Shown one piece after another: positions 21,256 to 47,013 of a DNA stretch of 64,000 bases (position 1 is the stretch's first letter; the number at the start of each line of letters is the position of its first letter). The stretch spans positions 1-64,000 of the forward strand of contig JARGXX010000121.1 in the NCBI GenBank assembly GCA_030374765.1, in the 5' to 3' direction. Origin of the DNA: Agarophyton chilense (Eukaryota > Rhodophyta > Florideophyceae > Gracilariales > Gracilariaceae). The notes below the pieces were generated by a model. It made no database searches, was not told the DNA's origin, and saw only the letters and a program-made list of their open reading frames with translations. The translations under genes were made by a program, and so were the position numbers.

Positions 21256-23862
21256 CTAAATCTCCTCCTCATCGTCTTCAAAGAGTTGAAACCCACCACT
21301 GGAGAGTTCATCATCATCATCATCATCATCACTGTCACGTCCAATATTTCCCCTTATCACGTTGTCTTTCTCTGGAGTACCTGCCTCACTTACTCCGCGC
21401 TTCACTGGTTTGTCGTCATCTTCTTCATTGAGGACAATGCAAAAATGCTTTGAGATAAGGTCCATGGTTTCCTTGAAGTCAGTGGAGTAGCAAGCAGCAT
21501 ACGTACAGCGCAATTGCTCAACTGATGTGTTCATTTGCTTTGCAACCAATCCCAAAAACTTTTCCTCAGACATGGATTTACCAAGCGATCCAGAACGAAA
21601 CTGATGCAGCATTGATGTGGCGTAGCTGGCGCGCAATGTCATTGCAGTAACTGATTTCAGATCGGGATCTATTTCGCGCATGAACATCTTGATGGAATTT
21701 GAAACATTGGCTGTGGTAAGAAAGTCCCCGTACCGTGAATGCAAGAGAAGTGGCTGACCAGTCTTAGATATCAACTGATCGTTTCTACTGCGATGTAGAA
21801 GAATTGGTCGTACTACTTTGACGTGGAATCGAAGGTATGACACAATCATGCAGGGAAAGTTAACATTCGGAATGTCTAGCGCTCTTGCCGTCTTCTCTGA
21901 AAGCGTGTTGATACCGAGTGTATTTCCGCCATTGCCACCAGCCCTCCCCATTTCCTTGAGCTCTTTCTTAGTCGGACACTGAAGTTTTGCATATGCCTGT
22001 GGCCGTTGTCCTCCACCGCACAAAGCAAGGAGAGCTAGAAAGTTGATGCACCATTTGTCGAGGAGCCCTTGGTTCTTTTGCATCTTCTGCACGCTCTTCT
22101 CATGGCCTTTGCCATTGACATCGGCTGCAAAATTGTTACAAATATCTGAGAGACGACCTCGCGCAAGCCGAACCCCGCGCTTGATATGATCCTCAGTGAC
22201 AATCATATGATTTTGAACGCGTTTCTCAGCCGCCTGCTTCATTCGAGATTCCTTTCGGGCACGTGTTTTAGCGGCGTTGAAGGTTGTACTCAAAAACATC
22301 ATAACCCTTTCCAAGTCAGAAATCTTTTCGGCATTCGTTACGTACCTCATTCTGGCAAACCTGCACACATTGAGGAGTGTGTTGCACTTTGAAGCCACAG
22401 TGCAGCAGGATGCCATGGAAATGAAGTGGTTGATGAAACACTTCATAAGGTTCTCATTTGAAACACATGAAAACAACGAGTTCTTCCGCCATCCCGAAGA
22501 TCGGCGCATCACACAAGCAGAAATACACCAGCGCATAAACTGCCCGGTGATTGACTTCACCAACATAAAACTGGTTCCACTGGAAACATTCATCAGTTCG
22601 CGTGTTTTGTATTTCAGGGAATAGATCTCTTTCAGGTCCTCACAGTTTTCAGGTGTAATTCTGAGACCTGCGTAGGCTGTGAGGCCCTTCCCGACCCTAG
22701 GACATTTCTCCTTCAGCAGAGCGATGGGGCTCGTGAAGAATTCTGGGTCACGAAGGAGCGTATCACGAATCATCATGTGCCACTTTTCTTTGGATGATAA
22801 TTGTTGCCCTGGATCCTTGTGTGTGATCATCAGATCGGGGGCGTTGACCTCGTCTACCTTCCCGTAACCATAAGCACGTCTGGAATTGAATTTCGAACGG
22901 TAGATATCTGCTCGGGAGTGCCAATATGCATCATTCATCTGATCCAGCTCTCTCTCTTGATCTTCGAGAAGACCTGTTAAATCCATGGGTTTTAATTCTT
23001 CACCATCATCTGTGTTTTCTGCTTTCACTCCTTCCTCTTCTCCAATAATATCAACAGTTCTTCCGTCGATGTGGTTCGAGAGCCCCGTTTCATCCTCATT
23101 TTCCCCTTCTCCGTGCTCTTCGGAGTCACTAAAGCTCAAGCGCTGGGGCTTTTCTTTTGACGAAACAAGAACTTTCCCGTCATTTGTTGTATCTCCCACG
23201 GGTTTCTCGAATGCAGGCGGCTGTTCGCCGGAATCACGTGGCGGTAGATAGTGGACATCTTCATGATACTCTCCTTCATCTTCCCATGCTCTCTGCATCT
23301 CATTGTGACCGAAATGTGGAGCATGGTGGGGGTTTCTCATCTTTGTTGTAGATGGAAGCTCGGGAACCACCGACTTCAATCGGTTCTTTCTATTACTCCT
23401 TGTCGTATTGCTAGGATTGGGTTCTAAATCAGACTGTGATGCAAGTGAGGAAGACAAAGTGCCTGGTGGGGTTGCCTTTTTCTTTTTCTTTCGAGGGCCT
23501 TCGTCTTCATTATCGCTTTGAGGAGCATGGAGAGCTTTTTTCACCTGTTGCATAGACGGCAACTCGGGACCCGCAGACGTCAATCGGTTCTTTCTATTTT
23601 TCCTTTCCACAGTGCTTGGATGTAGAACTGAATCAGACGGGGATCCAAGGGAGGAAGACAGATCATCGGGTGGCGTTGCCTGGTTCTTTTTATTTCGAGG
23701 GCATTGGTCTTCATTTTCGCCTCTTCTCGATTGTTTTTGGCGGTGTCTTTCGTGTGTTTCCGACTGGCCTTCACGTCGTGAAAGCTTATATTGTGGTTCG
23801 GGAGATTCTGTGTCGGACGAGATTCCGTAGACGGTGTTAAAAAACCCGGCCGCGTTCGTCAT
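21256..23862 (-). CDS. Crypton-like tyrosine recombinase
   Basis: An ATG at 23862 opens an 868-residue single-exon frame. Residues 1-330 are charged and low-complexity, with an internal duplication: ~50-117 and ~118-184 both run NED..PR.KK..ATPP...SSSL, then NRKNRL, then PELPS. The C-terminal half matches tyrosine recombinases: Arg620 in GGGQRPQAYAKL (first catalytic Arg), Arg744 in TLRASYAT (second Arg) and Tyr788 in LRCTYAACY (nucleophile). The His before the second Arg is replaced by Met741. A poly-Asp stretch ends the protein. Crypton transposons use one such enzyme to move through a circular intermediate. The adjacent Ulp1-type gene suggests a larger, multi-gene Crypton-like element. It could instead be a domesticated recombinase. 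Confidence 0.7.
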   Translation of the reverse strand: MTNAAGFFNTVYGISSDTESPEPQYKLSRREGQSETHERHRQKQSRRGENEDQCPRNKKNQATPPDDLSSSLGSPSDSVLHPSTVERKNRKNRLTSAGPELPSMQQVKKALHAPQSDNEDEGPRKKKKKATPPGTLSSSLASQSDLEPNPSNTTRSNRKNRLKSVVPELPSTTKMRNPHHAPHFGHNEMQRAWEDEGEYHEDVHYLPPRDSGEQPPAFEKPVGDTTNDGKVLVSSKEKPQRLSFSDSEEHGEGENEDETGLSNHIDGRTVDIIGEEEGVKAENTDDGEELKPMDLTGLLEDQERELDQMNDAYWHSRADIYRSKFNSRRAYGYGKVDEVNAPDLMITHKDPGQQLSSKEKWHMMIRDTLLRDPEFFTSPIALLKEKCPRVGKGLTAYAGLRITPENCEDLKEIYSLKYKTRELMNVSSGTSFMLVKSITGQFMRWCISACVMRRSSGWRKNSLFSCVSNENLMKCFINHFISMASCCTVASKCNTLLNVCRFARMRYVTNAEKISDLERVMMFLSTTFNAAKTRARKESRMKQAAEKRVQNHMIVTEDHIKRGVRLARGRLSDICNNFAADVNGKGHEKSVQKMQKNQGLLDKWCINFLALLALCGGGQRPQAYAKLQCPTKKELKEMGRAGGNGGNTLGINTLSEKTARALDIPNVNFPCMIVSYLRFHVKVVRPILLHRSRNDQLISKTGQPLLLHSRYGDFLTTANVSNSIKMFMREIDPDLKSVTAMTLRASYATSMLHQFRSGSLGKSMSEEKFLGLVAKQMNTSVEQLRCTYAACYSTDFKETMDLISKHFCIVLNEEDDDKPVKRGVSEAGTPEKDNVIRGNIGRDSDDDDDDDELSSGGFQLFEDDEEEI

Positions 23863-26403: not shown

Positions 26404-26722
26404 CAGGTTTTCGCCCCTGTATTGGGTTTCTTTTGTTGTTTCGCCCCTTTTCTGGTTCTCGGCTCTGGTGCTTGTTAGTGCCCGACCCTCGCCCCGTTTT
26501 TACTCTTCGCCGGATTTCCCCCCATTCTTTGGGATACCCATACCCATTCCCGATCCAACGGTTTCTACCCCTCACCTCCGTCGGTACTGCTGGAATCCGC
26601 CGTGGGAGTTACACCCCACACTACGGGTGGAACGGAGGGCTCTGTCTCTGAGTCTGCCTCCCCCAGGGAGCAAGGCTTTGAACACCTTGAGAGCACTTCC
26701 CGTCGCCGGGTTTTGCTCCACA
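26404..26722 (+). repeat. Left end repeat of chromovirus 1, with primer-binding site after it
   Basis: It matches 33,208-33,526 closely and ends in CTCCACA. Directly after it, at 26,725, is TGGTCTCCCGAGTTAG, a primer-binding site beginning with TGG, nearly the same as in the other two chromoviruses of the window. Confidence 0.8.
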
Positions 26723-26949: not shown

Positions 26950-28872
26950 ATGTCGCCGCCTACCCGTGGTTCCAGGACTGGATCGAACCGTCAAGCGGAT
27001 TCAGTGCCCCCGGCCCCGCCTAGGTCAAGGAGCTCAATTCCCGAAGGTCGGAACGATTCCGGTATCGATCCGGACACTCGGAGAACACCCTCAGTGGTTT
27101 CAGGTTCTCGGGAGGTCGTGGCTGTGGGCCCAGCTCCAGTGGTGGAGACCCCCTCAGCAGCACCCCAAAGTCGGGCCGACCCTGAATTACAGCGCCTGGA
27201 GACTCGAATTGATATCGCCAAAGCAGCTCACATCGAGCTCCTTCAGGAGGTTACTACCCTCCGCCTCAAGGTGGAGGATGCCCAGGTACGGGGAGTCGCC
27301 GATGACCTTCGTACGCTGAGGAGGGATGTGAACTCCCTTTTGGAAAGCTTTGGTACCCCTGGGGTCTTTATCCAGGAGTACCGGAGCCTCGTGGAGGAAC
27401 ACCGCGTGCAAGCGGAACGCTTCCGAGCTCGGCTGGACACCCTCGAGGCCATTATCCGTATGGACGGAGACACAGAAGCCTCGAAGGATAAACTCGACGT
27501 TTTGGAAGACGAAGAACACCGCTCGGCTAAACGGGACCGCCACAAGTCCAAGAAGAGGGTTCACCTCCAAGAGGATTTATCGGATTCCGATCCCAATCGC
27601 TCGTCATCGAGTTCGTCCTCCGAATCTTCGGATAGTGAAGATGGACGCCGGTCATCCCGGGCGACTCGGTCGAAGGCTACTTACATCTCTCAAGGGGCAA
27701 TCCGTACCCGGAAGAAGGGTAGGAAACACCTTGGATTAAGGGAGCTGAAGCTGACGAATCCTCTCTATCGGAAGCTGCTATCGTACCGCTATTACCGGTT
27801 GGATAACCCTTCGGGAGATCGAGCATCCCGCGGAACGGGTAAGGTCAAGGACTACATCAAAATGCTGAGCATCACCCTACAGAAGAGGGAGTTCACAGAA
27901 ACAGACCCAATTCTGGTGCTCGATTTCTTTGCGAGGTTCGTCCAGGAGGCTGACATCCTCGGTATGAGTGAAACGCAAGCGTATCTTGCATTACCCTATT
28001 TCTTAAAGGGGATGGCTGAAGACCAGTTCAACTCCGTCCGTGTATCATCCCGAGCCTCGGAAGGGGGAGTCACGTGCTGGCCCGAAGCGGTGCTGTACCT
28101 CTTGAGGTCATACGCTACTGGAAATGCGATTCAGGAAGCAACCCTTGCATTAAGGGATACGCGGCAGAAGCCGATGGAAACCGAAACGGTGTATTCAACT
28201 CGCTTGAATAAAGCGTTTCACCGATGCCGGAATGTATTCCCCGCCTACGAGAGATGCTCCATGTTTGTGGATGGTTTGGACCCCGCGATAAGGGCATTGG
28301 TTGCCCGACATCGGGAAGAGAAGCGCAAGCTGACCTACTTGGAATTGGTTCAGTTTGCCCAGGCTGAGGGGGATACTCTCCGTGCCCGGCAGAACCGAAA
28401 AAGTCGGCCGACAAGTGCACTCCTCGCCGATGGAGGTAACTTGTCTTCGTCACTCGCAGGAAGCCCTGCCCCTGTGGGGGTCAATGATAACATTCACTTC
28501 ATGGGAAGTAACCCCGAATCTATGGGTACGTCTGAGTTGCCGTCGACATCCGCTCCGACTACGGATGAAGACCCTGCGCTCTATACCCAAGGACGGAGGG
28601 TGCCAGCCGCATCGCTACCTTTTGCAAATACCGCTGCTCGGTTCTCTCGCCCCGGATGGAGGGATACAGCACCACATCGCGTGGATTCACGTCCACAACC
28701 GAACCCGGCAGAGCTGATTTGCTATTTGTGTTACCTCCGTGGTCATAAAGCACCAGACTGCACATTTCCCCTGCGGGAGGGTTCACGAATTATCGCTCAG
28801 TACGAGGCTCTGACCCCTGAGGAGAAAGCTCGAGTCCCAAGTAGGTCCTATGAGAAACAAAGGATACTCTGA
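26950..28872 (+). CDS. Gag of chromovirus 1
   Basis: This block encodes 640 residues and looks whole as an open frame. It has an early coiled-coil-like region (~80-170), a charged Ser/Asp/Arg-rich stretch (~195-240), a capsid-like middle and a CCHC zinc knuckle (CYLCYLRGHKAPDC) near 28,720-28,765. It is clearly related to the gag of chromovirus 2, sharing for example KGRKHLGLRELKLTNPLYRK-type wording. Gag forms the particle that packages the element RNA. Confidence 0.85.
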   Translation: MSPPTRGSRTGSNRQADSVPPAPPRSRSSIPEGRNDSGIDPDTRRTPSVVSGSREVVAVGPAPVVETPSAAPQSRADPELQRLETRIDIAKAAHIELLQEVTTLRLKVEDAQVRGVADDLRTLRRDVNSLLESFGTPGVFIQEYRSLVEEHRVQAERFRARLDTLEAIIRMDGDTEASKDKLDVLEDEEHRSAKRDRHKSKKRVHLQEDLSDSDPNRSSSSSSSESSDSEDGRRSSRATRSKATYISQGAIRTRKKGRKHLGLRELKLTNPLYRKLLSYRYYRLDNPSGDRASRGTGKVKDYIKMLSITLQKREFTETDPILVLDFFARFVQEADILGMSETQAYLALPYFLKGMAEDQFNSVRVSSRASEGGVTCWPEAVLYLLRSYATGNAIQEATLALRDTRQKPMETETVYSTRLNKAFHRCRNVFPAYERCSMFVDGLDPAIRALVARHREEKRKLTYLELVQFAQAEGDTLRARQNRKSRPTSALLADGGNLSSSLAGSPAPVGVNDNIHFMGSNPESMGTSELPSTSAPTTDEDPALYTQGRRVPAASLPFANTAARFSRPGWRDTAPHRVDSRPQPNPAELICYLCYLRGHKAPDCTFPLREGSRIIAQYEALTPEEKARVPSRSYEKQRIL

Positions 28873-29991
28873 GCTCACCTGGCTGACAGGGATATAGAAC
28901 TTGTACCCGCGAACGGATAACAACCGGTCCCCTTCGAGGCAGCTGCACCGAATTCGGTGGGGTCCGCTTCGAAAAAGTAAACTTCGGATACTCCCGAACC
29001 TGGGCCCGCTCCCTCAAGGGCCCAGTCAACGAACTCTTACAGAGTTACTCCCCCACCGGAGGTAATCAAGCCTCCTGGATCTCCGCCGAAGGAGGGGGGG
29101 GAGGACTTAGTTTCTTCGCATGACGATGTTTCGGCGTCAGCCAGTCGCCCTAACAGGGAATCTAGTTCCCACAGTGAGACGGCGAGCCCGACCGAGCCGG
29201 CGACAGAGAAGTCACAACCCCAGCGTATGGGTAGTGACATCACCGCAGACCCAGCCGAGCACGACATTCAGAAAAGATGACGAAAACCCACCTAGGGAGA
29301 GTCGTATGGAGAACTCCGCACCCGGAACGCCTACAGAGCCGACGATCACCCGCCGCCGCGGAAGAGACACTGAGGTGTCGCACACTCAAACCCCGCTTTC
29401 TCGGGAACGAGCTGTGTCAGCGGACCCGCAAGGGGAAGATCTCGACGACGAGGTTGATCAAATTTGGCTCTCCGTTATGGAATGGGAATAAGAACTCCTA
29501 TGGGGACACTGGAACCCTCAGGAATGGGAAAGAAATGAGTGAGACCCGTCGGGGACAGCTCAGGAGAGTGCTAGCGCGCGCCGAAAGCGCCACCTCACAT
29601 CCGCTTGCAGAGTGGCAACCGGCGCCCGCACATTTATGTGGCCCACGTCGATATGGCACCGAGCCAATCAAAAGGCTCTGACGACCAAACGTCGCGCAAA
29701 CCGCCTCCGTCGCACGGCGCGTTGCACCAGAGCAACCTTTGTCCCCGTAGCTCGGGTTGACGTTGAAGTCTTACCCCCCTGAGACTGGAGACGCTTCCGC
29801 GTCGCGTTTTCTCAACTGTCACGGAATCTAAGAACACCTTTGTTATCGGGAAGATCTCAGCTTTAAGAAAAACCTAAAAGTGGGCCGTTTTGACTCCGTA
29901 GACGGAAGTTACAACGTAGCCCACAGGCCACTCGGCGCCGTTTGGACGAAGTGCTGAGACCCGCTCGCAACACGTAAAAGAACCCACCGGG

Positions 29992-30282
29992 GTGTGTCTA
30001 GACCCTACGTTGACACCCTCAATGGAACTAGAGCGTTCCAAGATGGAAGAGAAGCCCGAACAGGGAAAAGTGTACCCGCAGGAATTCGTTATCGATCGCA
30101 TCGTGCGTCACATCTACACCCCCGAGGAAGAAGTTCGCTACCAAGTCCGATGGTACGGATTATCGCCTGAGGAGGATACAGTGGAACCCATTGAGTACCT
30201 TCCGAGGTCTAAGGTTTTATCCTATCACCGATGCGCTCGGGTAACCTTGCCTCCAAATCTGGATCGTGCCCAAGTCGGGTAA
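29992..30282 (+). other. Chromodomain piece of chromovirus 1
   Basis: The segment reads FVIDRIVRH, then YQVRWYGLSPEEDTVEP, then YLPRSKVLSYHR. This is the chromodomain that chromoviruses carry at the end of integrase to steer insertion to marked chromatin. It places the element in the chromovirus clade although most of pol is not seen. Confidence 0.8.
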
Positions 30283-30864
30283 ACCACCACGAGAACTGGT
30301 GTGGATGCGACCTCGAAGTGAGGAAGATGTTGGACCTCTGAAGAGGAATTGAGGAGAGTATCCCGAAGAACACGTATTGAGAGGGAAGGTCTACTGGCGC
30401 TCGGCCTAGCGCCGTTAACCGGGGAACACAACACCGGTTATCGGGACAGTTTATAATGAAAAAGGAAAAGAAGACCCACGAAGTGGAGAAGAAGATTAAG
30501 AAGAAGATTGGACCCTAGGAAGGGAGGAAGTCGAAGACGAAGATGAAGAAGATCCTAAGAAGGAAGAAGACGAAATAGAAGTTAAGATCCTAGGAAGGAA
30601 GAAGAAAAGAAGTTATGCAAATATCAGAAGTTTACTATTGTCGCCAAGCTATGGACTCTACAATTGCCCGAAGGCGGAACTACGGAAAGCCCGAGGAGGG
30701 ACCCGCCCCACCGTTGGGATTATGACCCTGATGGTACGCCGAAGCGAAAGCCAACATCTGGCTCACATCCGTCATACCCGGGGGAATCGGAATGCCTGCG
30801 TTCACGAGGCCTTGTCGCACACTATCCGCTTGCGGAGTGGCAACCGGCGCCTGCGCAAGGGTGT

Positions 30865-32601
30865 TCACACCCCACCCTGGGGAGCAGATGAACCGCCGCC
30901 GGATGCATTCGCCGCCGCAGCTGAGGTCGTTCCCACTGGTTGGAAGGGTGCAGATGGCTCCACAGGGAGTACTCCACTAGGAGCTGGTACTTCGTTATCC
31001 AACGCTGGATCGTCCAGGTCTACTGGAGGCTCGTACTCGTAATCGTCGGTAAAAATGAACCCCGTCGGGTGTCCCACCGGCATCGGTCGAGGCGAGTCAA
31101 TCAGCGCCCGTTCTTGCGCCGCGCTGATGCGAACCCCTTCGAAGGGATTGTAGTAGACCCAGTTACCGGAGCCCGGATCGTACCGGCCAGGAGACTTGTC
31201 TCGCGCGGATCCTTCCCTTGCGGCCTGATTTGCCACTGGAACTCGATCCCATTGGGTGTTGTCGATCACGTCCAAGATTGGATACAGGTCCTGCACGTTG
31301 CTGGCCGAACCCAACGCTTGGACAAGGTCGATCTGGCGCATGATGGTCCGTGACATCGGAGGAATATACAAGATACGGAAATGGTCATGAGCATCCCAGA
31401 GCAGGTGCGCCGCTGCGCGGGCTGCCCAATCGGCTGCAACGAGGGCCCAGTATCCCGAGTTCGGGTCGTGCATCAAACGAGACCCGATATAGTAGATACA
31501 TGGGGGCAGTTCAGCAAAGCACCCTCGGGGGACCTCGACCTTACTCCACCAAGCTGGAAGGGGCACGAATCGCCCAACCTTCGCCGTGTTACGGATACGC
31601 TCCAGTTCCACGTGAGGATACGGGACAAGGAACCCGAAACGGGAGCACGAGCGGCGCTCGAAGCGCACGCGTCGATCCAACCCATACTGGGTAAACTGCC
31701 GCTGAAGGTACCTGAATTCAGCCCGAAGGATGGGACGACTCCATTGGAGCATATCTTCTCGGAGGGGAAAACCCGGTCCGCGGAACTCCGCTTCGGGAAA
31801 GGCTGCCAGGTTATCCCCGTAGGAGACCTCACCGTACGTGCGGTAATAGGCGACATCGAACCCGTACTCCGGGGGAACCAGATGGTCAAAGCGTGACCTC
31901 TCCAATCGCTGGTAGGCCAGAGCCGCAATCGCTGCGCGCGCCTTGTCCAGGGACTCCCCGCGACTGCGGTATAGATACTGAGGCTCTATGGCTACCCGCG
32001 CTTTCCAATCGGGAGAACGTACAACCTCAACAGGTAGGCCACCCGGCAATAAGCCGTCCTCCACGTAGGAGTCGATGAGCTCATCGTCGCGAACCGCTGT
32101 CGGATGGAACCACGGAGCGCGGGAATATATCACCGGATCGGTAAGGGGACTCCACCTTCGAAAGGATTCGTTTGAAATCCAACCTCTGGAGTTTGCTACC
32201 AAGGGCATCGCATGAGCGGAGTTCCACGCCACCGCGTTGATGTCCAAATCCTCCTGAGGATGTCGGTTGCCCGCCGAGGCGGAAGGTTCGGTACCTGACG
32301 GAGCCGCATCCAAACCGGAGAAATATCCACCCTGCTGGGGAGCTTCGTTGTCCGCCGGCGCGGAGGCCGATGGCCCCGAGAGTGGGTTGATGACGTATGG
32401 GTTCATTCCCTTGAGAGGGCTAGTCGAAACCGCTGCTGCGAGAAGTTGCTTATCGCCGAAAGTCGGAGGAGTAGAAGAAAGTTGTACCGATGTGCCGGTT
32501 TTGTGGCGATCCTCAGAAGTGGTGAAGGACCCCATTGGGAGAACTATGTATAGTGATCGGAAAGCTCGACACCCGCGGCTCGGAATGTTCTTCCTCGTCA
32601 T
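30865..32601 (-). CDS. Antisense ORF of chromovirus 1 (unknown protein)
   Basis: A 578-residue open frame lies antisense to gag, between the chromodomain and the right LTR; its ATG abuts the polypurine tract. It looks whole. It is homologous to the antisense ORF of chromovirus 2, with about 45% identity by eye in the best region (for example RAEFRY, SRFG.LVPY, LPPWW or LPAWW, RGC..ELPP). I recognise no known domain, signal peptide or clear membrane anchor. The C-terminal ~100 residues are Pro/Ala/Ser-rich. It is not an envelope gene in the usual sense, because it lies on the other strand. A regulatory or accessory role is possible; function is unknown. Confidence 0.75.
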   Translation of the reverse strand: MTRKNIPSRGCRAFRSLYIVLPMGSFTTSEDRHKTGTSVQLSSTPPTFGDKQLLAAAVSTSPLKGMNPYVINPLSGPSASAPADNEAPQQGGYFSGLDAAPSGTEPSASAGNRHPQEDLDINAVAWNSAHAMPLVANSRGWISNESFRRWSPLTDPVIYSRAPWFHPTAVRDDELIDSYVEDGLLPGGLPVEVVRSPDWKARVAIEPQYLYRSRGESLDKARAAIAALAYQRLERSRFDHLVPPEYGFDVAYYRTYGEVSYGDNLAAFPEAEFRGPGFPLREDMLQWSRPILRAEFRYLQRQFTQYGLDRRVRFERRSCSRFGFLVPYPHVELERIRNTAKVGRFVPLPAWWSKVEVPRGCFAELPPCIYYIGSRLMHDPNSGYWALVAADWAARAAAHLLWDAHDHFRILYIPPMSRTIMRQIDLVQALGSASNVQDLYPILDVIDNTQWDRVPVANQAAREGSARDKSPGRYDPGSGNWVYYNPFEGVRISAAQERALIDSPRPMPVGHPTGFIFTDDYEYEPPVDLDDPALDNEVPAPSGVLPVEPSAPFQPVGTTSAAAANASGGGSSAPQGGV

Positions 32602-32614
32602 AAGGAGGGGGAGA

Positions 32615-33526
32615 TGTAGAGCAACGCCCAGTTAGGAAATACTTGAAGATGCAACTCATAGAATGAGGATTGAACCCTCCGAGGGTTATGATTATGATCC
32701 CCTCTAAGGTTTGCTGAGGTGGCACAGTTTTCCGGTTATATTTTGCCTATAAGGGAAATTCGGATAGCCCATGGTTGAATTGGCCCTGTGATACACGTGG
32801 CTTAATTTTGGCACCGATTTTCGGGTATTTGTAGAACGTTGGACTTTTGGGCCCTGGCAGTGGGATCTCCACGTGTATGGCCCTGAGCAGGTGTGCACTA
32901 CTTTAGAATTTAGTTAGTGGGCCCTACTTAGGGAGGCGAGATCTGACAGTCCGAGCTCAGAGTAAATGGGAACGAAGGTTGGTCTTCGATACCTTTAGAG
33001 GTTCTTCCTCGCCATCGTTTCGGCCTTACAACCCGGAACGGGCTCTGGTTAGCAACGCCTGCTTAGGGACACGACTCCACTTGGAGAGTGCTCACGTTTG
33101 GGTTCCGTACAACCATCTTCTTAGGACCGCTCAGACGACCTGCGTGCACGATACCCCGTGGGGGTTCTGCTTACTTGTTGCGTGCTTTTTGTTTTTCCTT
33201 TCGAGGACAGGTTTTCGCCCCTGTATTGGGTTTCTTTTGTTGTTTCGCCCCTTTTCTGGTTCTCGGGTCCGGCGCCTGTTAGTGCCCGACCCTCGCCCAG
33301 TTTTTCCTCTTCGCCGGATTTTCCCCCATTCTTTGGGATACCCATACCCATTCCCGATCCAACGGTTTCTACCCCTCACCTCCGTCGGTACTGCTGGAGT
33401 CTCCCGTGGGAGTTACACCCCACACTACGGGCGGAACGGAGGGCTCTGTCTCTGAGTCTGCCTCCCCCAAGGAGCAAGGCTTCGAACACCTTTAGAGCAC
33501 TTCCCGTCGCCGGGTTTTGCTCCACA
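32615..33526 (+). repeat. Right LTR of chromovirus 1
   Basis: The LTR is 912 bp, beginning TGTAGAGCAACGCC and ending CTCCACA, preceded by a polypurine tract. Its start resembles the LTR ends of chromovirus 2 and of the solo LTR at 46,123. It contains the shared word TTCGCCCCTGTATTGGG near 33,215. Confidence 0.8.
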
Positions 33527-33814
33527 GTGCATAAGTCCAATTCAATGAAATAGTGGTTAGATAGTCTAAATATGTCGGTTATGGAATGGCCAGCGCGCTC
33601 TCCTGACCTCAACCCTATCGAAATCATTTGGGGAATGTTGGCCCGAATGGTTTATGGGCAAGGAAGGCAATTTGATACAGTTTTTGATCTGAAAAATCGT
33701 ATCAAAGATTGCCGGGAAAAGATTGACTGTAATTCTATCAATCCTTTTATAGAATCAGTGCCAAAGCGTTTTATAAGTGGTATACAGCCCAGAGGAGCAA
33801 AAATAAACTACTGA
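33527..33814 (+). pseudogene. Tc1/mariner transposase C-terminal fragment
   Basis: The frame reads VHKSNSMK, an in-frame stop (TAG), WLDSLNMSVMEW, then PARSPDLNPIEIIWG, the hallmark around the last catalytic acidic residue of Tc1/mariner DDE transposases. About 95 codons remain. The stop and the loss of the N-terminal part make it non-functional. Chromovirus 1 separates it from its probable upstream piece at 26,372-26,403. Confidence 0.8.
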
Positions 33815-33847
33815 ACTCGGGTTTGAATAAAAAGGATGCAATAAAGG

Positions 33848-34785
33848 TGTAGTGCAACGCCAAGGGCGGCGGAAACACACGAAGATGTCCGAGTCTTCCT
33901 CCAAGGAGGGTAGCACGGCGACGGAGCCTCTCCGGAGTGAACACGACTAAGTCGGGGTTTAAGGCCGAGGTTCACCGACACGCCAAGCGGGGAGAGTGCG
34001 GGATGCTAGAAGGGAGCAGACCAGGTGTGAGCTGTATTTCACAGGAGTGGGCAAGTGATAAAGGGGGGACCACCCAGTGGGGGCGATCGGGGGCATGGGC
34101 CACGAGAGCCAAAAGAAATATGTAGCAAACCCAATACTGGGGCGAGAACACGGCAGTGGTATGAAAGATATACACGCTAACAGCGGTGAGTCTCCTGTTG
34201 ACGCAGGGTGGATAAGTCTACCGTTAGTAACGCGGCTTCACCTCCCTAGAGTGTGGAAGACTCGCGAAAGCGGAAAAAGACTTAGAGCCAAGAACCCTGG
34301 TTGTATGAAAGATATACACGCTAACAGCAGTGAGTCTCCTGTTGACGCAGGGTGGATAAGTCTACCGTTAGTAACGCGGCTTCACACCCGTAGAGTGTGG
34401 AAGACTCGCGAAAGCGGAAAAAGACTTAGAGCCAAGAACCCTGGTTGGGGAGGTTTACTGAGTGTCAGGGCGGGATCGCCCTGGCACCATATATTGTAAA
34501 ATACTGTAAAGAGCTCCCTAACCTAGTGTAATAAAGCTAAATAAACAGGGAAATATACAGCTATGCTGTTCCAACCTGTCCTGGGCCACCCGTGGTACAC
34601 GTGGGTAAGTCACACCCGAATCGGGGCCACGGCGCACGGCCGCCGGTGCACTTCGCGTACAACGCGTATACACCTGGCTACGCCAGCCCGCTAGTAGCGG
34701 TATTACTCATAGATCTCACAAGTATCGCCCGAGGCGGAAAAACAACCAAGTCCTGTAAAACGGCCCTCACGAGGATTGCATTTCA
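33848..34785 (-). repeat. 3' LTR of chromovirus 2
   Basis: This 938-bp direct repeat of 44,971-45,908 begins TGTAGTGCAACGCC and ends TTTCA on the plus strand. It contains its own tandem repeat: a ~144-bp unit at 34,160-34,303 is repeated at 34,304-34,446. Confidence 0.92.
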
Positions 34786-35054
34786 TATTTCCCTTCTGAG
34801 GCGCGAGTACGACATCCGCGATGGTGGGCAACGCGCCGAAACGAATGCATAAGAGTGCAACCAGCTCGCTGGGATCCACTTAATCCGATGCCAACAAACG
34901 CAGTGCGGCAAAACTCCAGTCCCCTGGCAACAACCGTTCTCAACGTTCCATCTCAACCGAATCCGCATCCTTGCGTGCCAGTCCTCCGATTCCTCGGCAT
35001 CGTCTTTAGCTTTGCCGGTCTCCTCTTCCGGTCATCCGGCCTCTTCGCTTACCG

Positions 35055-36758
35055 ATGAGCAACCAAAAAAATCAACCCAACCGTCTCCCTGCGGGGTATT
35101 TCTCCGGCTTCCGGTCCGCTCCGCTTCCGCAAAGCGCGTCATCGGCTGCGCCGCAGATTCCTATCGCGAACGTGGCTGCTGCTCCGTACGGAATGTTCCC
35201 CTCGAGAGGGTGGCCGCCATACGACATGCTTGTCGGGCGCCATCCTGGGCATCATGCGTCCGTTCTCCGGCTTGCGCCGTGGTTCCACCCGATTGCGGTG
35301 TCAAACGAAGCGCTCATAGCGATGTACACCGATGGAAACGGGATGCTTCCGGGCGATATTCCGGCCGTGGCGACAAATTCGTTGGATTGGCGACGCCGCG
35401 TAGCGGTTCCGGTCCACGGTGTGGCGCGCCGGGGTAGTGAAACCTCGGCTTCCGCTCATGCGGCCCCCGTCCTTCTTGGCCATCAACGGCTTCGCCGGGC
35501 TCATTTCGTATATCCCATCCCCGATGGTCTCGGCACCGACATTCGGCTTTACCGCACTCAAGGTGAGATTGGTTACGTCGACCGCCTGGCGGGTTTGGAA
35601 ACACTCTCGTGGAGGGGCATCCCGATAGCACGGCAAGAGGCCATGTGCTGGACGCGACCGATTATCCGGGCAGAATTCCGCTACATGCGTCGACTTGCGC
35701 GGGCCAACTTCCGTGCCCTGATCCGCTTCGAGAGTCGAGCACGATCCCGATTCGGGTATTTGGTCCCGTATCAGAACGTGGAGATCGAACGCCTTCGCGT
35801 TACCGACCGACGGGGTCGCTATGTCCTCCTTCCACCGTGGTGGTCGAACCTCGAGGCCTGCCGGGGCTGTTACATCGAGCTGCCACCAGTCATCACTTAT
35901 TACGGTTCGTACCTCTTCGAGGATCCCGAGTCCGGACTGTGGTCCGTGGTGATTACCGAATGGGCAGTCCGCGCGGCGGTGTTCATTCTCTGGGAGGTGT
36001 ATGACCAGTACAGACTGTGGTTCCTCCCGTTCCGGTTGAGGTCCGCGATTCGCAGCCTGGACCTGAGCATCCCACTTGGTGAAGTAACCAACGCCGAAGA
36101 AGTGGCGGATCTTCTCGATTACATCGACCAGTTGGACTGGACCACCGTTCCGATTGAACAAAGCGGGCGCACCGTGGGTAGCCGGGGTCAGGACCTGTCA
36201 CAAGGAAGGCGTACTCCCTTGGGAGGTGATTTCGTATACTTTGACCCTTGCGAAGGGCACGAAATCTCCGCGGAGGAAGCGAACGAACTCCGGTTTGCAC
36301 CACGCCATATACCCGAGGGGCATCCGATCGGTTTCGTGGACGCGGATGAATATTACCACGTCTACGACGGCAACGATCCAATGGTGGACAACGAACCCGA
36401 CGACGGGGAAGCGTACGCCGAGGCGGAGGTCGAGGGATCCGAAGCGGAAGGTCCCTATAACGCGGGGACGCCAGCCATGCCTTACGTGGATTTGGATAAC
36501 CCCGCGGGGGCTGGGTCGGAGTACGCGGTAGCTGGACAACCTCTGGTTCCACCGGTGAATCTCCCAAGTGGTGGGGCGTCCGCCCCAGGCGATGCGAGCT
36601 CTGCTCCGGCGGGTCAAGCGGCCGTGATCTCCCAGTTCCTGCGACAGGTGGGGCTGGGGACCAACGCAGCGAGTGGCGATGTTGTCGCGATGCGCGAGGC
36701 CTTGATCACCCGCCTCCAGGGAGGTAACCAACCCCGGGGAGATGAGCCGAACCCGTGA
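35055..36758 (+). CDS. Antisense ORF of chromovirus 2 (unknown protein)
   Basis: A 567-residue open frame from an ATG at 35,055 lies on the strand opposite to gag-pol, between the 3' LTR and the chromodomain end of pol. It looks whole. It aligns along most of its length with the antisense ORF of chromovirus 1; shared blocks include APWFHP, RPIxRAEFRY, SRFGxLVPY, a WWS motif, ELPP and a YDG/DDP-type acidic end. No known domain, signal peptide or catalytic motif is seen. The C-terminal ~110 residues are Pro/Gly/Ala-rich and acidic. Same place, same orientation and same protein family in two separate elements argue that it is a conserved part of this lineage. Confidence 0.8.
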   Translation: MSNQKNQPNRLPAGYFSGFRSAPLPQSASSAAPQIPIANVAAAPYGMFPSRGWPPYDMLVGRHPGHHASVLRLAPWFHPIAVSNEALIAMYTDGNGMLPGDIPAVATNSLDWRRRVAVPVHGVARRGSETSASAHAAPVLLGHQRLRRAHFVYPIPDGLGTDIRLYRTQGEIGYVDRLAGLETLSWRGIPIARQEAMCWTRPIIRAEFRYMRRLARANFRALIRFESRARSRFGYLVPYQNVEIERLRVTDRRGRYVLLPPWWSNLEACRGCYIELPPVITYYGSYLFEDPESGLWSVVITEWAVRAAVFILWEVYDQYRLWFLPFRLRSAIRSLDLSIPLGEVTNAEEVADLLDYIDQLDWTTVPIEQSGRTVGSRGQDLSQGRRTPLGGDFVYFDPCEGHEISAEEANELRFAPRHIPEGHPIGFVDADEYYHVYDGNDPMVDNEPDDGEAYAEAEVEGSEAEGPYNAGTPAMPYVDLDNPAGAGSEYAVAGQPLVPPVNLPSGGASAPGDASSAPAGQAAVISQFLRQVGLGTNAASGDVVAMREALITRLQGGNQPRGDEPNP

Positions 36759-36937
36759 CGGGGCACGCAATCCCGATGGGGATTTTTCCCTTGTGACTTA
36801 GAGTAGTATCCCGAGTGCTCGGTATTCCATCGATAGCTTCGAATAAAAACCAAGTGACTTGTGTAACCCAAAACCTTCCTTCACTAGCCTGTTCTCAAGC
36901 AAACCTACTTCTCTTTTCTCTTCCACCGAGGTGGGTG

Positions 36938-39900
36938 TTATCCCACCTGGGCTTTAACAACCGATGCCGGGATTCCCTTCCGCGTTCTGCGGTGATATGA
37001 CACCACTTTCGAACGTGGGAGATGTTCCATCGGCTCATCCGAATCCCATTCGGGCCCTAAACCGTACCAACGGACGAGGTATTGAATATAACCATCCGGA
37101 TGGTATGAGTGCTCCACTATGTAGTCGACCACGAACCTCTTCTCGTAGACTTCCCGCCCTTGCGGTGTACGCGTCACCGGACCAAACCGGTGTACGTCCG
37201 CAAGTGCGTGTGGGCTACTGTGCCCTTCCCCCGAGAGGTCCATGGGTTGGCGTTGCCTTTCCATGCCCTGGGTAGGGGAACGAACCAGGTTCCGGGTTGC
37301 CTTGGCCGCTTGGCGGGTTGCTTCCGCCAAGGCGTCATGACGAAGAGCGTCAGTTCGACGGCTTCGGCCGGAGGCCTTCTCATGGGGCAATTCTCCAAGT
37401 TTTTGGGTCGGAATGCTTTCCGACAGTTCTCGTGCAGAGGCCACCCTTCGGGGGAACGCGGACTCATCCCAAGGCTGGGTTTCGCGGTCGCGTTCCGCGA
37501 GTCGTCGGAGTGAAATCCGTCGCGACGCTGCTGGACTTGACGCGGGAGGCGGTTTCATCACGGGGCGTCGTGCCTTGCCGAGTGAGCCGCCTTGGGCGTT
37601 GATTGGCGTATCTCCCGAGCCGGGTTTCGTCTGGTCACGTGACAAGTCCGGCTGATGGCTGGGAGTACTCCGCGCCGTGCTGCGTTCCGCCTCCTCACGT
37701 GAGGGCGTGTGCAACGGCGCTGCCGGTATGTCTGCTCGCTTGGGCGACAAAGTACCGCGACGGGCGTGCAACTCCGGTTCAAACGTGCCTTCCTCACCAA
37801 CGGGCGGCGAAAAGCGCAGCGAGGAACCCCTGCGGGGAGCGAGTTCGTCCTCAACTATCTCTCTCGAGGGTTCAGCTTCACTCGGCGACGAGGTGCTTTC
37901 GTCCTTGACGGGCACATTCTCCGGGGTGACCGGTGCGCCTTCGACAGCGCTGTCGGGGTCAACCGAGACACTCGGAGTGCGTCCGCCACTGCGCGCGGGT
38001 TCTGAACGAGCATCAAGCGTGCTGGGTGTGAATCTCCCGTCTGCTACGGTGTGCTTGCCCGGCTTAGCCGGTGTGTCCTGCCGTACAGTACGAGGGACCA
38101 CTTCCGATCGATTAGACCTAGAGGGGCCTGCGAGGGCGTGCTCTAAGTTTTCCATCGTAGCTGGTGTCAACGAACCGTGACCGACGGGCTACGGGTCAAC
38201 GCTCGACGGCATAGCCGGTCCAGTATCGCGAGGGCAAACAGCATCCTGCGACGATTTCGGTTTCGCTTTGGCGAGATGGTTTCCACTACGTGGTTCGTCC
38301 TGTCGAGTAGAGTCCCCGTGGGGAGTGCGATCAGACGAAGATGCGGTGGCGCTTCCCATAGAGGGTTCAGCAACGGCTGTAGCGCGCAAATGCGGAGATG
38401 GCACGTCGGTAGACGGAACGTCCGGATCACCGTTGTTCTTGCTGGTGTGTCCAGGAGTCCGTGCACCACGGTTTTCATGACGCCACGAAGCGGTTTCCGT
38501 CTCTCGACGAGAGTTATGAGCCTCCTCCCCCTCCTGAGACGGAGCGGCATGGGGAGTGGTTGGAACGCCCAACGGGCCGGGGTAGACACCGCGCCGTGGC
38601 GTGAGAGAAGAAAGACCAATCTGGCCTTGATCCGATAAGATCGGCAAGTCAGAGAGTCCCCGGGTAGGGTGTGGTAACGCAGAAGGTCTGGAAACCACGG
38701 CAGTGGGCTGAGCCACTGTTGTGTGCCGAGCACCATCATCCTCAGAGAGGGATGGTTGACCCATTTCGGTTACTTCCAACGTCGGTGGGGGGGCGAGTAC
38801 AACGCGGTCGCGGGAGATCCGCTCATGAGCGTCGACAATTTCTACCACGATGGTGTCGTCTTTCACCGAAATGACCTTGTAAGGACCGTCCGCGACGGAA
38901 GAAAGCTTGTGGTTCTTTTCCTTTTCAGGGTTCCAGTACTCCTTACGGACGAAGACGAAGTCACCGGCTTTGATTGGCGGGGCCTTACCGCGTACACGAG
39001 AGTAGAAATCACGCTTGTAAGCGGCTTGAGCACGAGACATCGAGCTTCGGGCGACCGGGATCAGCTTCGTAGGCCACTCTTTCCACCTGTGGCGATAATC
39101 CTTCACGGACGGGAACGCATCCAGCGTGGGCTGGGGTTCTAACGCGACAGCGGGAGGAGGGCGGGACAAGACCAGTTCGAATGGAGTCAAGCCCGTAGTA
39201 CGGTGTACCTGCGTATTGTACGCGAACGTCAAGGCGTCGGTATATAAATCCCATGTCTTTGGGTGGTCGGCCGCGTAAGAACGGAGAGCCGCTAATGGCG
39301 TTCAGTTAAACCGCTCCACTTGCCCATTACACTGGGGGTGATAGGTCGTTGTGAACAGGTTCTTGATGTCAAGAATCCTGCACACGTCCTCGAAGAATCG
39401 CAATGCGAACTGTTTTCCGTTATCGGATAGAAGACTAACCGGCGGGCCGTACACGAATACCCAATGGGTTACAAATGCTTGTGCAACCGTGAAAGTGGAT
39501 ATCTTCCGTAAAGGTACGGCCCGAACCAGTTTTGAGAAACGATCCGTGATATCGAGAAAAAACTTATGCCCACGTCGTGTGGTGAGGAGCTCGCCAAGGA
39601 TGTCAATGGCGACAAACTCGAGAGGAGCCCGTGCCGGGAATAGTTTCAACTTCGTTGAGTACTTGCGAAGTTTCACCCGATTCTTAGCACATTCGGTACA
39701 AAACTGCACCGTTGCGTAGCAATCCAACGCCATGGCGGGCCAGTAGAAATTCCTTCGCAAAGTGAGGTAGAGCTTCCGTCCACCGGCGTGTCCACCAAGT
39801 TTCGCATAGTGCGATAGATGCAAAACTCTAGACTGTAGAGTATGCAGCACCACGACTTGTAGGGATGACTGAACCGTCCTGACGAGGTATCCAAGATCGT

Positions 39901-42642
39901 TCACCTCGAAAGGGAATTGTGCACCGCCATTAAGCCAGGCGCCAATCTTCGTACAGAAAGGGTCACCATGCTGTTCTCTGACCATCTCCTCCGGGGGTAT
40001 CGGCACAAAATTACCCGGCGGGGGTTTCTCTGAATCGTCCGAGACGAGCAATGCGTCAATATCATCATCCGATTCCGGGCTTTCGTTCCATTTATCGTGT
40101 AACCAATCCGGGTCCCCCGGTGTTCCATCGTCTACGACGAAGCAAGGTATATCCTCTTCATCGACGGCTAGAGCTTCCGCATTCGTGGGTAAACGCGAGA
40201 GCACGTCCGCTTGCGCGTTCTGAGTGCCCTTCTTGTAGATCACTTCAAAGTCGTATTCCGCAAGGCGGAGTCTCCAACGCATTAAGCGGCCTGACGGCTC
40301 TGAGATGGTCATGAGCCATCGTAGGAACGAGTGATCCGTGTAAAAGGTAAAGTGCACACCCATGAGGTAGTGGCGTAGTGTAGAGAGGGCCCACACAACT
40401 GCGAGGCACTCCTTTTCCGACACGGAGTAGTTCCGCTCGTGGACATTGAGCGAGCGTGACCAGTACCCAATGGGTTTGCGTTCTCCTTCGGGAGTAGTTT
40501 GAAAGAGCGCACAGCTTACCTGGTAGTCGCAAGAGTCCGTGTCTACGGAAAACGGTAATCTGGGTTTCTGTAACGATAGGATCGGTGCTGATGTGACAGC
40601 CTCCCTAAGGGAATTAAAAGCATCCGTCTGGGCGGATGTAAAGGGGTCCAGTTTAGGTGGTTGACGTTTCCGCGGAAGCGCGTTCAAGGGGGCCGCGATG
40701 TCAGCGAAGTTAGGGATAAACCGTCGGTAGATGTTGACCAATCCTAGAAAGGAGCGCAGTTTCGTCTGGCTAGCGGGTTCTTTCGCCTTGCGAAGGGGCC
40801 TCACTCGAGCTTCCTCGATCATTACACGTCCAGGACGGATAATGTGCCCAAGATACTTCACAGTATCGGTAAAGAACTCACATTTCCTCAGTTTGAGCGT
40901 TATTCCAGCATCACGTAGCGTGGTCATTATGACCCTGACATGGGTGAGATGGTCATCCAGATTGTCTGAGAATACAATGATATCGTCCAAATAGGCGAGG
41001 CAATTACGCCACTTAAAGCGGGCCAACAAAATGTCGATAGCACGCTAAAAGGTAGCGGGAGCATTGGTTAGACCAAAAGGCATCCGTTTGAAACGGTAGA
41101 GTCCCGAGTGACAGACAAACGCAGTCTTATCTTGGTCCTCCTCCCTAACGGGAACCTGCCAATATCCCCAATTGGCGTCCAAAGCCGTGAACACGGTAGC
41201 AGTGCCGAGACAGTCGATGTACTCATCCATTCGTGGGATCGGATACACGTCCTTGACGGTAACATTATTCAGGCGAAGGTAGTCGATGCAAAAGCGCCAG
41301 GACCCATCGGGTTTCGGATCCAGTACCACTGGGGATGCCCACGGCGACTGAGCCGGTTCGATCACTCCAGCTCGGAGCATTTTGTCCACTTGGAACTGTT
41401 CCTCTTCTCAAGCCTTGGGGCCTGCCCTGTAAGGGTGTTGAGCCACCGGTCGGGTGTTCGGCAATAAATCTATCCAGTGTTCCGTTGTATTTATCTCACC
41501 AAGAGAGCCATCCCACATTGTGGTAAACTCCCGTAACATCTCACGCAGACTTTCACGGTGTGACTCCGTTACATGACCGAGGTCGAGTTCCTTGAGTTCT
41601 TTCACGGGATCTACCCGGTCGTACCTCGTCGGAACGGGCTTCTTTTCTGTTTCGGCAAATTGTGATTCTAAATCATTCGGTGATTTGACGGCAGCTTCCT
41701 CCCCCTCCTTAGAGTGAACGAGACCGAGGACTTCGGCAGCCGTCAGCCTAGTGGGGACCATCGCAGTGGGGTGAGGCATTACCGATCCATTAACTTGGTT
41801 TTTCACCAGTGACTGGGGGTGGAGCCCAGATTGGCAACGAGCACGGTGAACGGCTTGTCTGGGACAATCTGCGTGACTCCATTCGCCACGGCGAGTTGAT
41901 ATCCATCGTACAGAGATGAGAGAGGCTGAATGACTCGTAAACCGTGTTGACGGGAAGTGACACGCACCCATACTTGGGACTCTGGCGAGATTCGGACAGA
42001 CGCAGCCACGCGGAGCTTGGTAGACTCCCGAGAAGCGGGTGGAGGTTCCTGCGCGGCAGGGAGCGGTACGTGCTTCTTGGAGGCACGCCACAGCGGAAGA
42101 CGGACAATCGGGACCGACGAGCCGTCTTCCATCTCAACATGCTTTAAGCAGGGCCTTATGGCGTCAACGAATCTGTCACAGAAGTCACATCCCAAGATGA
42201 TGGGGGCAGCCAATTTCCGGCATACAATAAAGTCGAGTTTCACCACGAAGGAGCCCAAGCGAACGACGAGAGCGACGGTTCCAACCGTTGACAATGGGTT
42301 GTTATTCGCGTCCGCGACGTCGGGCGCCACGCCAAGGCGGATCTGAGACCGCAAGGGCGGGGGCAGCAGCGACTCCACGATGAAATTCGGACCAATAACT
42401 GTGTCCAAAACAGTAAGGACTCGAACCATAAACTGGGTAGAAAGGCCAATGTCTGCATACACCTTGTAATTGCGCTTGGCCATTACTAAGACTCTATCCG
42501 CGAACTGGCGGTTAAGAACACATTTCCACGGTCGACGTAGAACACCAAAGTGTTCAGAGTCCACGTCTGAGACGGCCTGTTTCCTCGTGAGGATTGTGAC
42601 CGGGGAGCGAGGCGGAGACGCCTCGGGCGTCGTCAACCTCAC
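36938..42642 (-). other. Pol region of chromovirus 2
   Basis: Parts are read right to left. A protease-like segment lies around 42,100-42,420. Reverse transcriptase lies at about 40,900-41,390 (FCIDYLRLNNVTVKDVYPIP; YLDD near 40,985). RNase H is at ~40,150-40,560 (VDTDSCDYQVSCALF). The integrase zinc-binding part and catalytic core are at ~39,300-39,850 (FVAIDILGEL, SDNGKQF). A linker follows, then a chromodomain near 36,980-37,160 (FVVDYIVEH, QYLVRWYGLGPE). This is the standard chromovirus order. A few breaks are present. Confidence 0.88.
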
Positions 42643-42680: not shown

Positions 42681-44873
42681 TCAGTTTTCCTGAGTCCCAT
42701 CCGCCTGGGGCGGGGCCTCAGAATTCTGAACCACTAGCAATGGGGCGCCAGCGGCGGGGTTTGAAGGAACGGGGCGGTGGTCGGGAGCCTGCTCGGCAGG
42801 GTAAAGCAACGCATTGCGCGGTTTCGCCTCCGGAATACTCCGTGGAAAACCGATCTTCGCTTGACGATACGACGTCATCGGAACAATCCGCTTTTCCACT
42901 GGGGTCAACGCCTCATAATTACCGATTAATCGGGCTACTTCCCTCATGGTGAGGATACAGTCCGGTGAAATGTGACCGTGTTCGTAGCATATGTGGCATA
43001 TGAGTCCCGGACGTGAGGGCTGCAAACCGGAGCGAGCATCCGTGAACTTCACCGCCTTGCGGGTATCCTTCCATCCAGGGCGACTCTGTCGGAGCGCACC
43101 GTTTGAATACGGGATGCGAGATCCGTGAACACGGGGAGAGTCTGCGTACAGCAGGGGTCCATCCTGGGCCGTGTCATATGAGTCGTCCGTCGTAGACGGT
43201 AGTTCGGTTGTCGGGACCGAATGGATATCGCTTCGGGCGAAGTGTACGTTGTCGTACTCCTGTTGGGGGCGCTCAATCGCAACTAGCGATAGGGATGGCG
43301 AATTTGTTTCCATCACCAACGCCTTGGCGGTTCGCGACCTGTGTCCGGGGGCACGAGCTCTTAAAGCGTCATCTTCCGCTTGCGCGTGTTGGACCAACTC
43401 CAGATATGTGGTCTTCCTTCGGTCTTCCCGGTAACGGGCCACGAGTGTTCGGATAGCGGGGTCCAGTGCATCGATGAACATGGTGCAGCGCTCTCTGGCG
43501 GAGGGTACGTTCCCACTACGTTGGAAAGCCTTGTTCAGGCGCACCGAGAATTCGGTTTCCGTTTCTCCAGACTTCTGGCGCGTATCGCGAAGAGCGAGAA
43601 TGGACGACTGAATCGCGTGATTAGTGGCGTAGGACCTCAAGAGGTATTGTACTGCTTCTGGCCAGCAGGTTACTCCTCCTTCGGAGGCTCTAGACGAACC
43701 TCTTACAGAGTTGTATTTATCCTCGGCGAGGCCTTTCATAAAGTACGGGAGTGCAATAAACGCCTCTCCTTCGGTCATACCGAGAATATTTGCTTCGGCG
43801 ACGAACCTCGCAAGGAAATACAACACCAAAATGGGGTCTTCTCCAGAAAAGCTCTGGTTCCTGAGAGACAGTTGCATACGCTTTATGCAATCCTTCACTC
43901 TACCCGTGGCACGGGGCGTGCGATCCAAAGAGAAGTTCTCTAGCCGATAGTATCGGTAAAAAACCAACTTCTTGTACAGGGGGTTGGTGCATTTCAGCTC
44001 CTTCAACCCGGAGTGTTTCCTTCCCTTCTCGCGGGCGCGGATCACACCTCGGGTGGCAGACGACCGTTTAGAACGGGATGAACGCCTGCGATGGCCATCG
44101 TCAAAAAACTAATCTGACGAGTCCGACCCATTTGAATGGTGAGAGCCACGCGACGACCGTGAGGAGTTCGACCAGTCCGATTCATCGCTGTCACGCTTTC
44201 CACGCCGACGGTGGGTATCTTCCCTTTTCCTCTCGTGTTTCGCTTGGTGCGACACAGCAACCGGCTTCTCCGGGACGTCTCCCATCAAGATGGTTTGCTT
44301 TAACCTCTGGAGACGGGCGCTAACACAATTGAATCGGGTCTCGACACCTTCCACGTAAGCGAAGGGACCACCAAAACATTCCAACAGGGTGTTGACGTCC
44401 GCCCGCAACAAGCGGAGGTCGTCAACCACTTCCTTCATAGAAGAGCCATCACAACTGGAACGCAGGGCTTCGAACTCTTCCACGAAAGCATTGTGTGCTT
44501 CCCGCATTACGCGGATCTGCTGCCTCACACTTGAGGTGGTGTCGATGTGGAACTCGTTTTTCTGGGCCTTTTCGTCGGCAGGAGCCGGGTCATTCACGGC
44601 AGGGGCCGGTCCAGTACCGGAATTGGGTCCATTCTTCGACGCCTTAGGCGGTAGCTTGTTGTTCTTGGAGGAGTTCGACCCCTTACTCTTGCCTTTCGGA
44701 GCGGCTTGAGGTAAAGGCGGGGGAACCCTTCCAGTGTCCGCAGGCACCACGTCATTGACGGAACGGCTCCGCGTGATCGCTGGTTCCGCTTCCGACGGTA
44801 GTCGTGACATGGTTGTAGCGTTGAGCACAAAGAATAGGACAACAAAAACTTCCACCAAGTGGGTCCAAACCAA
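42681..44873 (-). other. Gag region of chromovirus 2
   Basis: The gag includes a Ser/Asp/Arg-rich stretch, a capsid-like region similar to chromovirus 1 gag (KGRKHSGLKELKCTNPLYKK), and a CCHC zinc knuckle CHICYEHGHISPDC near 42,960-43,005. It is followed by the protease region in the usual order. It begins ~95 bp inside the 5' LTR, after the primer-binding site. Confidence 0.85.
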
Positions 44874-47008: not shown

Positions 47009-47013
47009 TTGTC

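Follow-up and report, generated by a model that had tools for sequence, protein, structure and literature searches.

Two different chromodomain-bearing Ty3/Gypsy elements, lying side by side in a 64,000-nucleotide stretch of the red alga Agarophyton chilense (positions 1–64000 of contig JARGXX010000121.1; hereafter the window), each carry a long open reading frame (ORF) on the strand opposite gag-pol, and this arrangement raises the question of whether these antisense ORFs (aORFs) represent a gene that the elements have kept. An initial annotation, made from the letters alone, had described an aORF of 578 codons on the minus strand (30865–32601) and one of 567 codons on the plus strand (35055–36758), and both are present at these positions. 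It had also judged them homologous at about 45% identity by eye in the best part; BLASTP aligned the two proteins at 41% identity (182/449 residues, 316 bits, E 3e-105), and both indeed lie antisense to their own gag-pol, between the chromodomain and the 3′ long terminal repeat (LTR). From these elements and their relatives in the genome assembly we searched (79.76 Mb, 135 contigs), we lean, with somewhat better than even confidence, towards reading the aORF as a protein-coding accessory gene of a chromodomain Gypsy group, under purifying selection, whose antisense transcription is predicted to begin on the 3′ LTR side and whose product is likely a nuclear regulator. The accessory-gene part of this reading is better supported than the nuclear-role part. 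The two elements are laid out as follows.

Element 1 (family 1)
26404–26722, plus strand: shortened 5′ LTR, 95.6% identical to 33208–33526 over 319 bp
26950–28872, plus strand: gag-like ORF of 640 codons, without a Pfam match, resembling the first ORF of a fuller family 1 copy (L042)
28979–28980, plus strand: approximate junction of an internal pol deletion; 36/40 scored matches to 28600–30600 start at query position 380–387 and 4/40 cross it
~30070–30282, plus strand: chromodomain-like stretch, sharing 55.7% identity across 70 aa with the family 2 chromodomain stretch
30865–32601, minus strand: aORF, 578 codons, its C-terminal end broken in the window copy
32602–32614, plus strand: probable polypurine tract, a purine run seen by eye immediately 5′ of TGTAGAGC
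32615–33526, plus strand: 3′ LTR, of which 32901–33526 is 95% identical to the 5′ LTR of another copy; start inferred

Element 2 (family 2)
33848–34785, minus strand: 3′ LTR, 98.2% identical to 44971–45908 over 938 bp
35055–36758, plus strand: aORF, 567 codons, homologous to that of element 1
36842–36847, plus strand: AATAAA 3′ of the aORF stop, a candidate signal for polyadenylation of an antisense mRNA
36938–38170, minus strand: chromodomain ORF (PF00385, E 1.6e-5, at the cut-off)
39302–41029, minus strand: reverse transcriptase (RT), RNase H and integrase ORF (PF00078, PF17917, PF17921, PF00665)
42681–44045, minus strand: gag-like ORF, by eye like the element 1 gag, without a Pfam match
44971–45908, minus strand: 5′ LTR, pairing with 33848–34785 at 98.2%

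With RT, RNase H and integrase plus a chromodomain in pol, all detected by Pfam, family 2 is a Ty3/Gypsy chromovirus, and chromodomain-like stretches similar to its PF00385 region are also found in family 1 and in the two further families described below. Element 2 is flanked on both sides by AAAGG (33843–33847 and 45909–45913), which reads as a target-site duplication, and a 144-bp unit occurs twice in tandem in each of its LTRs (34156–34447 and 45279–45570). The start of the element 1 3′ LTR at 32615 was placed from the purine tract and the TG that follows, the matched portion beginning at 32901; comparison with another copy (L083), whose LTR is longer than the element 1 5′ LTR, gives a family 1 LTR of at least 626 bp, and its length is probably 912 bp. 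Between the two elements, at 33570–33800 on the plus strand, we noted by eye a possible Tc1/mariner-type transposase fragment.

The initial annotation had both aORFs open over their full length, but that of element 1 is not. The ATG that opens the 578-codon frame is private to the window copy, being AAG in 7/7 other copies examined, and the next methionine, residue 23 (~32535), is the likely true start; near its C-terminal end the frame is broken, and the C-terminal piece continues in frame in other copies, L002, L005 and L008 among them.

Relatives of the aORF recur at the same place in related elements. Three protein-database searches returned 3, 3 and 9 matches: three further relatives at 40–43% identity and, with the family 3 core as query, nine proteins at 56–89% identity, six of them named Agarophyton chilense. 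A search of the genome with one relative (P0005) gave 83 scored matches, two further families among them. Family 3 (locus L039) has an aORF of 608 codons and family 4 (locus L040) one of 637 codons, counted from a TTG; each lies tail to tail with an integrase-chromodomain ORF, 335 and 213 bases away, respectively, and the corresponding gap is 179 bases in family 2 and ~580 in element 1. In families 1 and 2, whose LTRs are delimited in the window, the aORF occupies the position by which antisense ORFs of LTR retrotransposons are defined; in families 3 and 4 it is antisense and past the chromodomain ORF, the LTRs there not being delimited. Families 2 and 4 are closest in both the aORF (53%) and the chromodomain (72%), and family 3 is farthest in both, as expected if the aORF descended along with its element. 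Integrase identities of 59–64% do not separate families 1, 2 and 4. An identical (100%) integrase ORF stands beside a family 3 aORF four times (C34:484232–485299, C114:5591–6658, C115:5324–6391 and C115:51904–52971), three of these near contig ends, which suggests recent segmental or terminal duplication. None of the 21 pattern matches in IMG/VR was a relative. We also considered whether every Gypsy element of this genome carries an aORF and rejected this on two examples: in contig C113 (L084) the 1741 bases that follow the integrase match gave no acceptable aORF match (lowest tblastn E 0.023), and in a third, older Gypsy element of the window (47009–55458, plus strand; LTR parts 85–88% identical, integrase 52253–53554) a profile search of ORFs of at least 40 aa found none.

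Probes of 26 bases, allowing up to 2 mismatches, matched 246, 82 and 217 genome sites for families 1, 2 and 3, and the reversed probe patterns matched none. The aORF is free of stops and gaps in 11/22, 14/29 and 5/16 usable copies of these families. Many sampled copies thus carry a broken aORF, and the openness of any single copy, which the initial annotation had taken as a hint of selection, is weak evidence; selection itself is supported by the comparisons that follow.

Between families, the ratio of nonsynonymous to synonymous divergence (dN/dS; Nei-Gojobori, six family pairs, one copy per family) was 0.26–0.42 at a dS of 1.6–2.7, and not near 1, the value that the initial annotation had named as counting against its reading. 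Identity at the three codon positions was 0.51, 0.61 and 0.33 between families 1 and 2, and about 0.5, 0.6 and 0.33 for most pairs; this pattern is independent of the dS correction.

Within families, we separated variants private to one copy from those shared by two or more copies and counted nonsynonymous and synonymous changes (N/S, expressed as omega). Before counting we dropped 7/29 copies in family 1 (L043, L044, L045, L049, L054, L055 and L062), 1/30 in family 2 (L030) and 5/21 in family 3 (L063, which did not map, L069, L071, L073 and L080, which is identical to L039), leaving 22, 29 and 16. Copies of families 2 and 3 were taken from rankings by protein score, a source of downward bias in their private N/S; those of family 1 were obtained from DNA matches plus L042. 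In families 1, 2 and 3, respectively, private omega was near neutral (0.98, 0.85 and 0.85), with 13, 19 and 15 private stops against 13.3, 17.8 and 23.2 expected; shared omega was 0.41, 0.56 and 0.77, with 0, 3 and 2 shared stops against 2.4, 2.7 and 4.2 expected. Fisher's test of private against shared variants gave p 2e-4, 0.02 and 0.18, and 1e-4 when pooled, and family 1 stayed significant (p 0.01) without CpG, TpG and CpA positions. Near-neutral private variants together with shared variants depleted of amino-acid changes fit insertions that decay freely while the replicating lineages keep the protein. Coding on the opposite strand, or chance, was considered for families 1 and 2 and rejected by running the test in each frame: outside the aORF frame, a like depletion appeared only in the mirrored sense frame, which holds 19–30 stops per family. 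As a control, the sense ORF covering the integrase tail and chromodomain of family 2 (29 copies) gave a shared omega of 0.85 (p 0.25); the aORF appears to be under stronger constraint than that ORF, in a test of limited power. We conclude that purifying selection on the aORF protein is supported between families and within two of the three families tested.

Element 1 is itself defective, and most of its pol had been found unrecognizable in the initial annotation. The fuller copy L042, with gag and protease-RT-integrase ORFs as well as an aORF, has pol where element 1 lost it. Among the 40 scored matches (of 601 candidates) to 28600–30600, four span the gag-to-tail junction and 36 begin beyond it, and recurrence of the junction at ~28979 indicates an internal pol deletion that was copied. 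The three other copies with this junction (C73, C80 and C86), and one without it (C109), have a common ~950-bp deletion inside the aORF, and we therefore rejected the idea of element 1 as a stable nonautonomous family that includes the aORF. The bases past their 3′ LTRs differ, so these copies are separate insertions. By these comparisons, elements that lack both pol and an intact aORF have been multiplied. The suggestion of maintenance in trans is likely right for the pol-deleted copies, as an inference from their multiplication at separate sites.

How would the aORF be expressed? In family 1 some 80 bases separate the likely start codon from the inferred LTR start, and in family 2 the distance from start codon to LTR is ~270 bases; this closeness leads us to predict a promoter for antisense transcription within the 3′ LTR or next to it. 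At the other end, the family 2 AATAAA begins 83 bases past the aORF stop in the window and is kept in 27/30 copies; family 3 has an AATAAA 52 bases past the stop in 19/20 mapped copies (L063 was unmapped), and in both families it is followed by a GACTT..GTGT-like block. Across family 2 copies, 1.4% of positions in the block depart from the window copy, against 7.3% in the rest of the spacer, part of the latter figure arising from insertions and deletions. The spacer is pyrimidine-rich in the aORF direction in all four families; in the gag-pol sense, purine-rich stretches lie between the pol stop and the aORF stop in all four (window 30460–30610 and 36755–36938; L039 7518–7857; L040 6001–6218). 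In the model we favor, transcription entering at the 3′ LTR end, opposite in direction to gag-pol, would give the aORF its own antisense mRNA; its protein could be supplied in trans to defective copies and would act in the nucleus to regulate the element, probably helping or controlling its spread.

The protein itself belongs to no family we could recognize, in line with the initial annotation. Neither window aORF matches Pfam, and the relatives have no Pfam match above the cut-off; NCBIfam gave no match above the cut-off, and the full aORF profile matched no sequence in the PDB. Sub-threshold E3_binding matches within the core, in 5/15 members, were rejected, as was a leucine-rich repeat protein matched by the C-terminal profile in the PDB (E 0.0073), in which no single stretch was significant. 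The profile searches and structure prediction proposed earlier thus yielded no domain above the cut-off and weak models: AlphaFold2 gave a mostly helical core with low-confidence tails for two aORF proteins (predicted local distance difference test, pLDDT, 60.5 and 59.0), and Foldseek (PDB, BFVD) and VIA-align found no fold match, which with models this weak does not imply a new fold. The last third is acidic in 7/8 proteins examined, and this tail is poorly predicted. No clear membrane segment is present, the top 19-residue hydropathy being 0.89 and 1.57 for the window aORFs and at most 1.64 among the 8 proteins. In relatives from each of the four families the C-terminal end is a piece that both models predict as a pair of helices; 3/8 of these C-terminal pieces weakly match Ish1 (PF10281; best 18.6 bits, E 0.0024, cut-off 26.6 bits), and 2/8 match DUF6127 instead. 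A nuclear regulatory role is our guess of moderate strength, drawn from the lack of a clear membrane segment, the acidic tail, the sub-threshold Ish1-like helix pair and analogy with Grande gene23.

Several observations weigh against the reading we prefer. Between-family dS is near saturation at 1.6–2.7. The family 2 result is no longer significant once CpG-type positions are removed (p 0.12), and family 3 alone is not significant; moreover, one of its sense-strand frames gives a shared omega of 0.76 (p 0.04), versus 0.77 (p 0.18) in the aORF frame and 0.83 in frame +1, and nothing there sets the aORF frame apart. The AATAAA is absent past the aORF stop in families 1 and 4, which have in its place AATAGTAAAC or a one-base variant in common. 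The aORF-deleted copies have been multiplied, so the aORF is not needed in cis, and weak models (pLDDT ~60 and 59) and weak hints underlie the nuclear role.

We weighed other explanations against this evidence. The antisense transcript rather than a protein might matter, pairing with sense genomic RNA over ~1.7 kb so that double-stranded RNA (dsRNA) damps the element and the ORF is incidental. By its layout, the sense genomic RNA would cover the complement of the whole aORF, and a dsRNA role has been raised for plant elements (PMC7264820), but codon-level constraint (the low dN/dS, and the scarcity of amino-acid changes among shared variants of families 1 and 2) is not what an RNA role alone predicts. 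We regard this explanation as unlikely, and the RNA and protein roles may coexist. The protein could instead be a self-limiting inhibitor that lowers transposition when copies are many. Truncated Gag lowers Ty1 transposition at high copy number, and both the multiplication of aORF-deleted copies and the presence of the gene at hundreds of sites would suit such a role; nevertheless, aORF-bearing copies vastly outnumber the four seen without it, and selection at the level of the element favors loss of a pure inhibitor, yet four diverged families retain the aORF. This, too, has a low probability in our judgment.

A host or foreign gene captured once and carried as a functionless passenger would explain why roughly every second sampled copy is broken and why no function is known, but it predicts a shared omega near 1, where families 1 and 2 give 0.41 and 0.56, and leaves unexplained a frame still common to four families at such high dS; we consider it improbable. 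An envelope-like gene in reverse orientation, suggested by the position between pol and the 3′ LTR, is very improbable given the antisense strand and the hydropathy values, which show no clear membrane segment. An accessory gene whose protein is under purifying selection remains the reading we favor.

A wider proposal can be drawn from a second high-copy repeat in the window. Its 244-codon ORF (62076–62810, plus strand; 150 scored of 698 candidates, 65–79% identity excluding itself) aligns colinearly with the aORF core (hhalign probability 57%, P 1e-4). In a separate run it scored 28.2, whereas the highest of 60 shuffles reached 24.0 and no other window ORF more than 22.9, but its probability in that run was only 6%; the profile search with the aORF did not list it, and the neighboring ORF at 61293–61877 does not match the aORF. 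It is a possible remote relative. In the widest version, red-algal chromoviruses would have evolved, separately from plant Tat/Retand elements and from retroviruses, a trans-acting regulator that is encoded in antisense and belongs to a new protein family. A distant branch of that family would also serve this second, different repeat, and the family would be an accessory toolkit common to mobile elements of red algae; we offer this tentatively and consider it rather doubtful.

The remainder of the window holds features of other kinds. Two plus-strand ORFs, one with N6/N4 DNA methylase and SET domains (3347–5077) and one with DEAD/Helicase_C and OrsD-type domains (5963–11590), lie where GC skew is strongly negative. 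Internal arrays of the telomere-like 8-mer CCCCTAAA follow at 12047–12284 and 13485–13794. Within 17974–23862, a plus-strand ORF for a Ulp1-type protease adjoins a minus-strand ORF (21256–23862) that is tyrosine-recombinase-like by eye, without a Pfam match; the two may belong to a large mobile element, Crypton-like or of another kind.

How does the aORF compare with known systems? Repeats make up 66.2% of the published G. chilensis assembly (PMC10388701). Our searches of open-licence PubMed Central listed no antisense ORF in red-algal retrotransposons. Antisense ORFs at the 3′ end have been described in plant Gypsy elements and the fungal Boty, and the Grande gene23 protein is reported to be nuclear (PMC7264820). 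The present gene resembles the plant Grande and fungal Boty ORFs in place, strand, many copies, related families and a protein of unknown function, and differs in its chromovirus setting, in its red-algal host and, by comparison through Pfam, in having no match in common with them. The antisense ORFs of Retand, a non-chromovirus group reported as confined to flowering plants, carry TRP28 (PF04195; PMC11963269); our gene sits in chromoviruses, and 15/15 relatives have no PF04195 match up to E 5, a range in which HMMER filters drop most matches above ~0.1. Antisense genes have also been described in human T-cell leukemia virus (HTLV; PMC11963269). Like HBZ of HTLV-1 and related retroviral antisense proteins, the aORF is encoded in antisense at the 3′ end and is, by our prediction, a nuclear regulator; unlike HBZ, the aORF proteins have no bZIP match in Pfam, and we saw no sequence relation. 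The C-terminal helix pair is similar in length to the Ish1 domain, its score being below the curated cut-off. Genes of this kind are known from plants and a fungus; what appears to be new is the family of the protein, its occurrence in chromoviruses and its red-algal host. The frame stands at hundreds of genome sites, yet it is covered by no Pfam family, and the comparison of private with shared variants indicates that the protein is preserved through replication. As a further case without a detected common domain, it suggests that LTR elements have repeatedly arrived at a protein encoded antisense to gag-pol.

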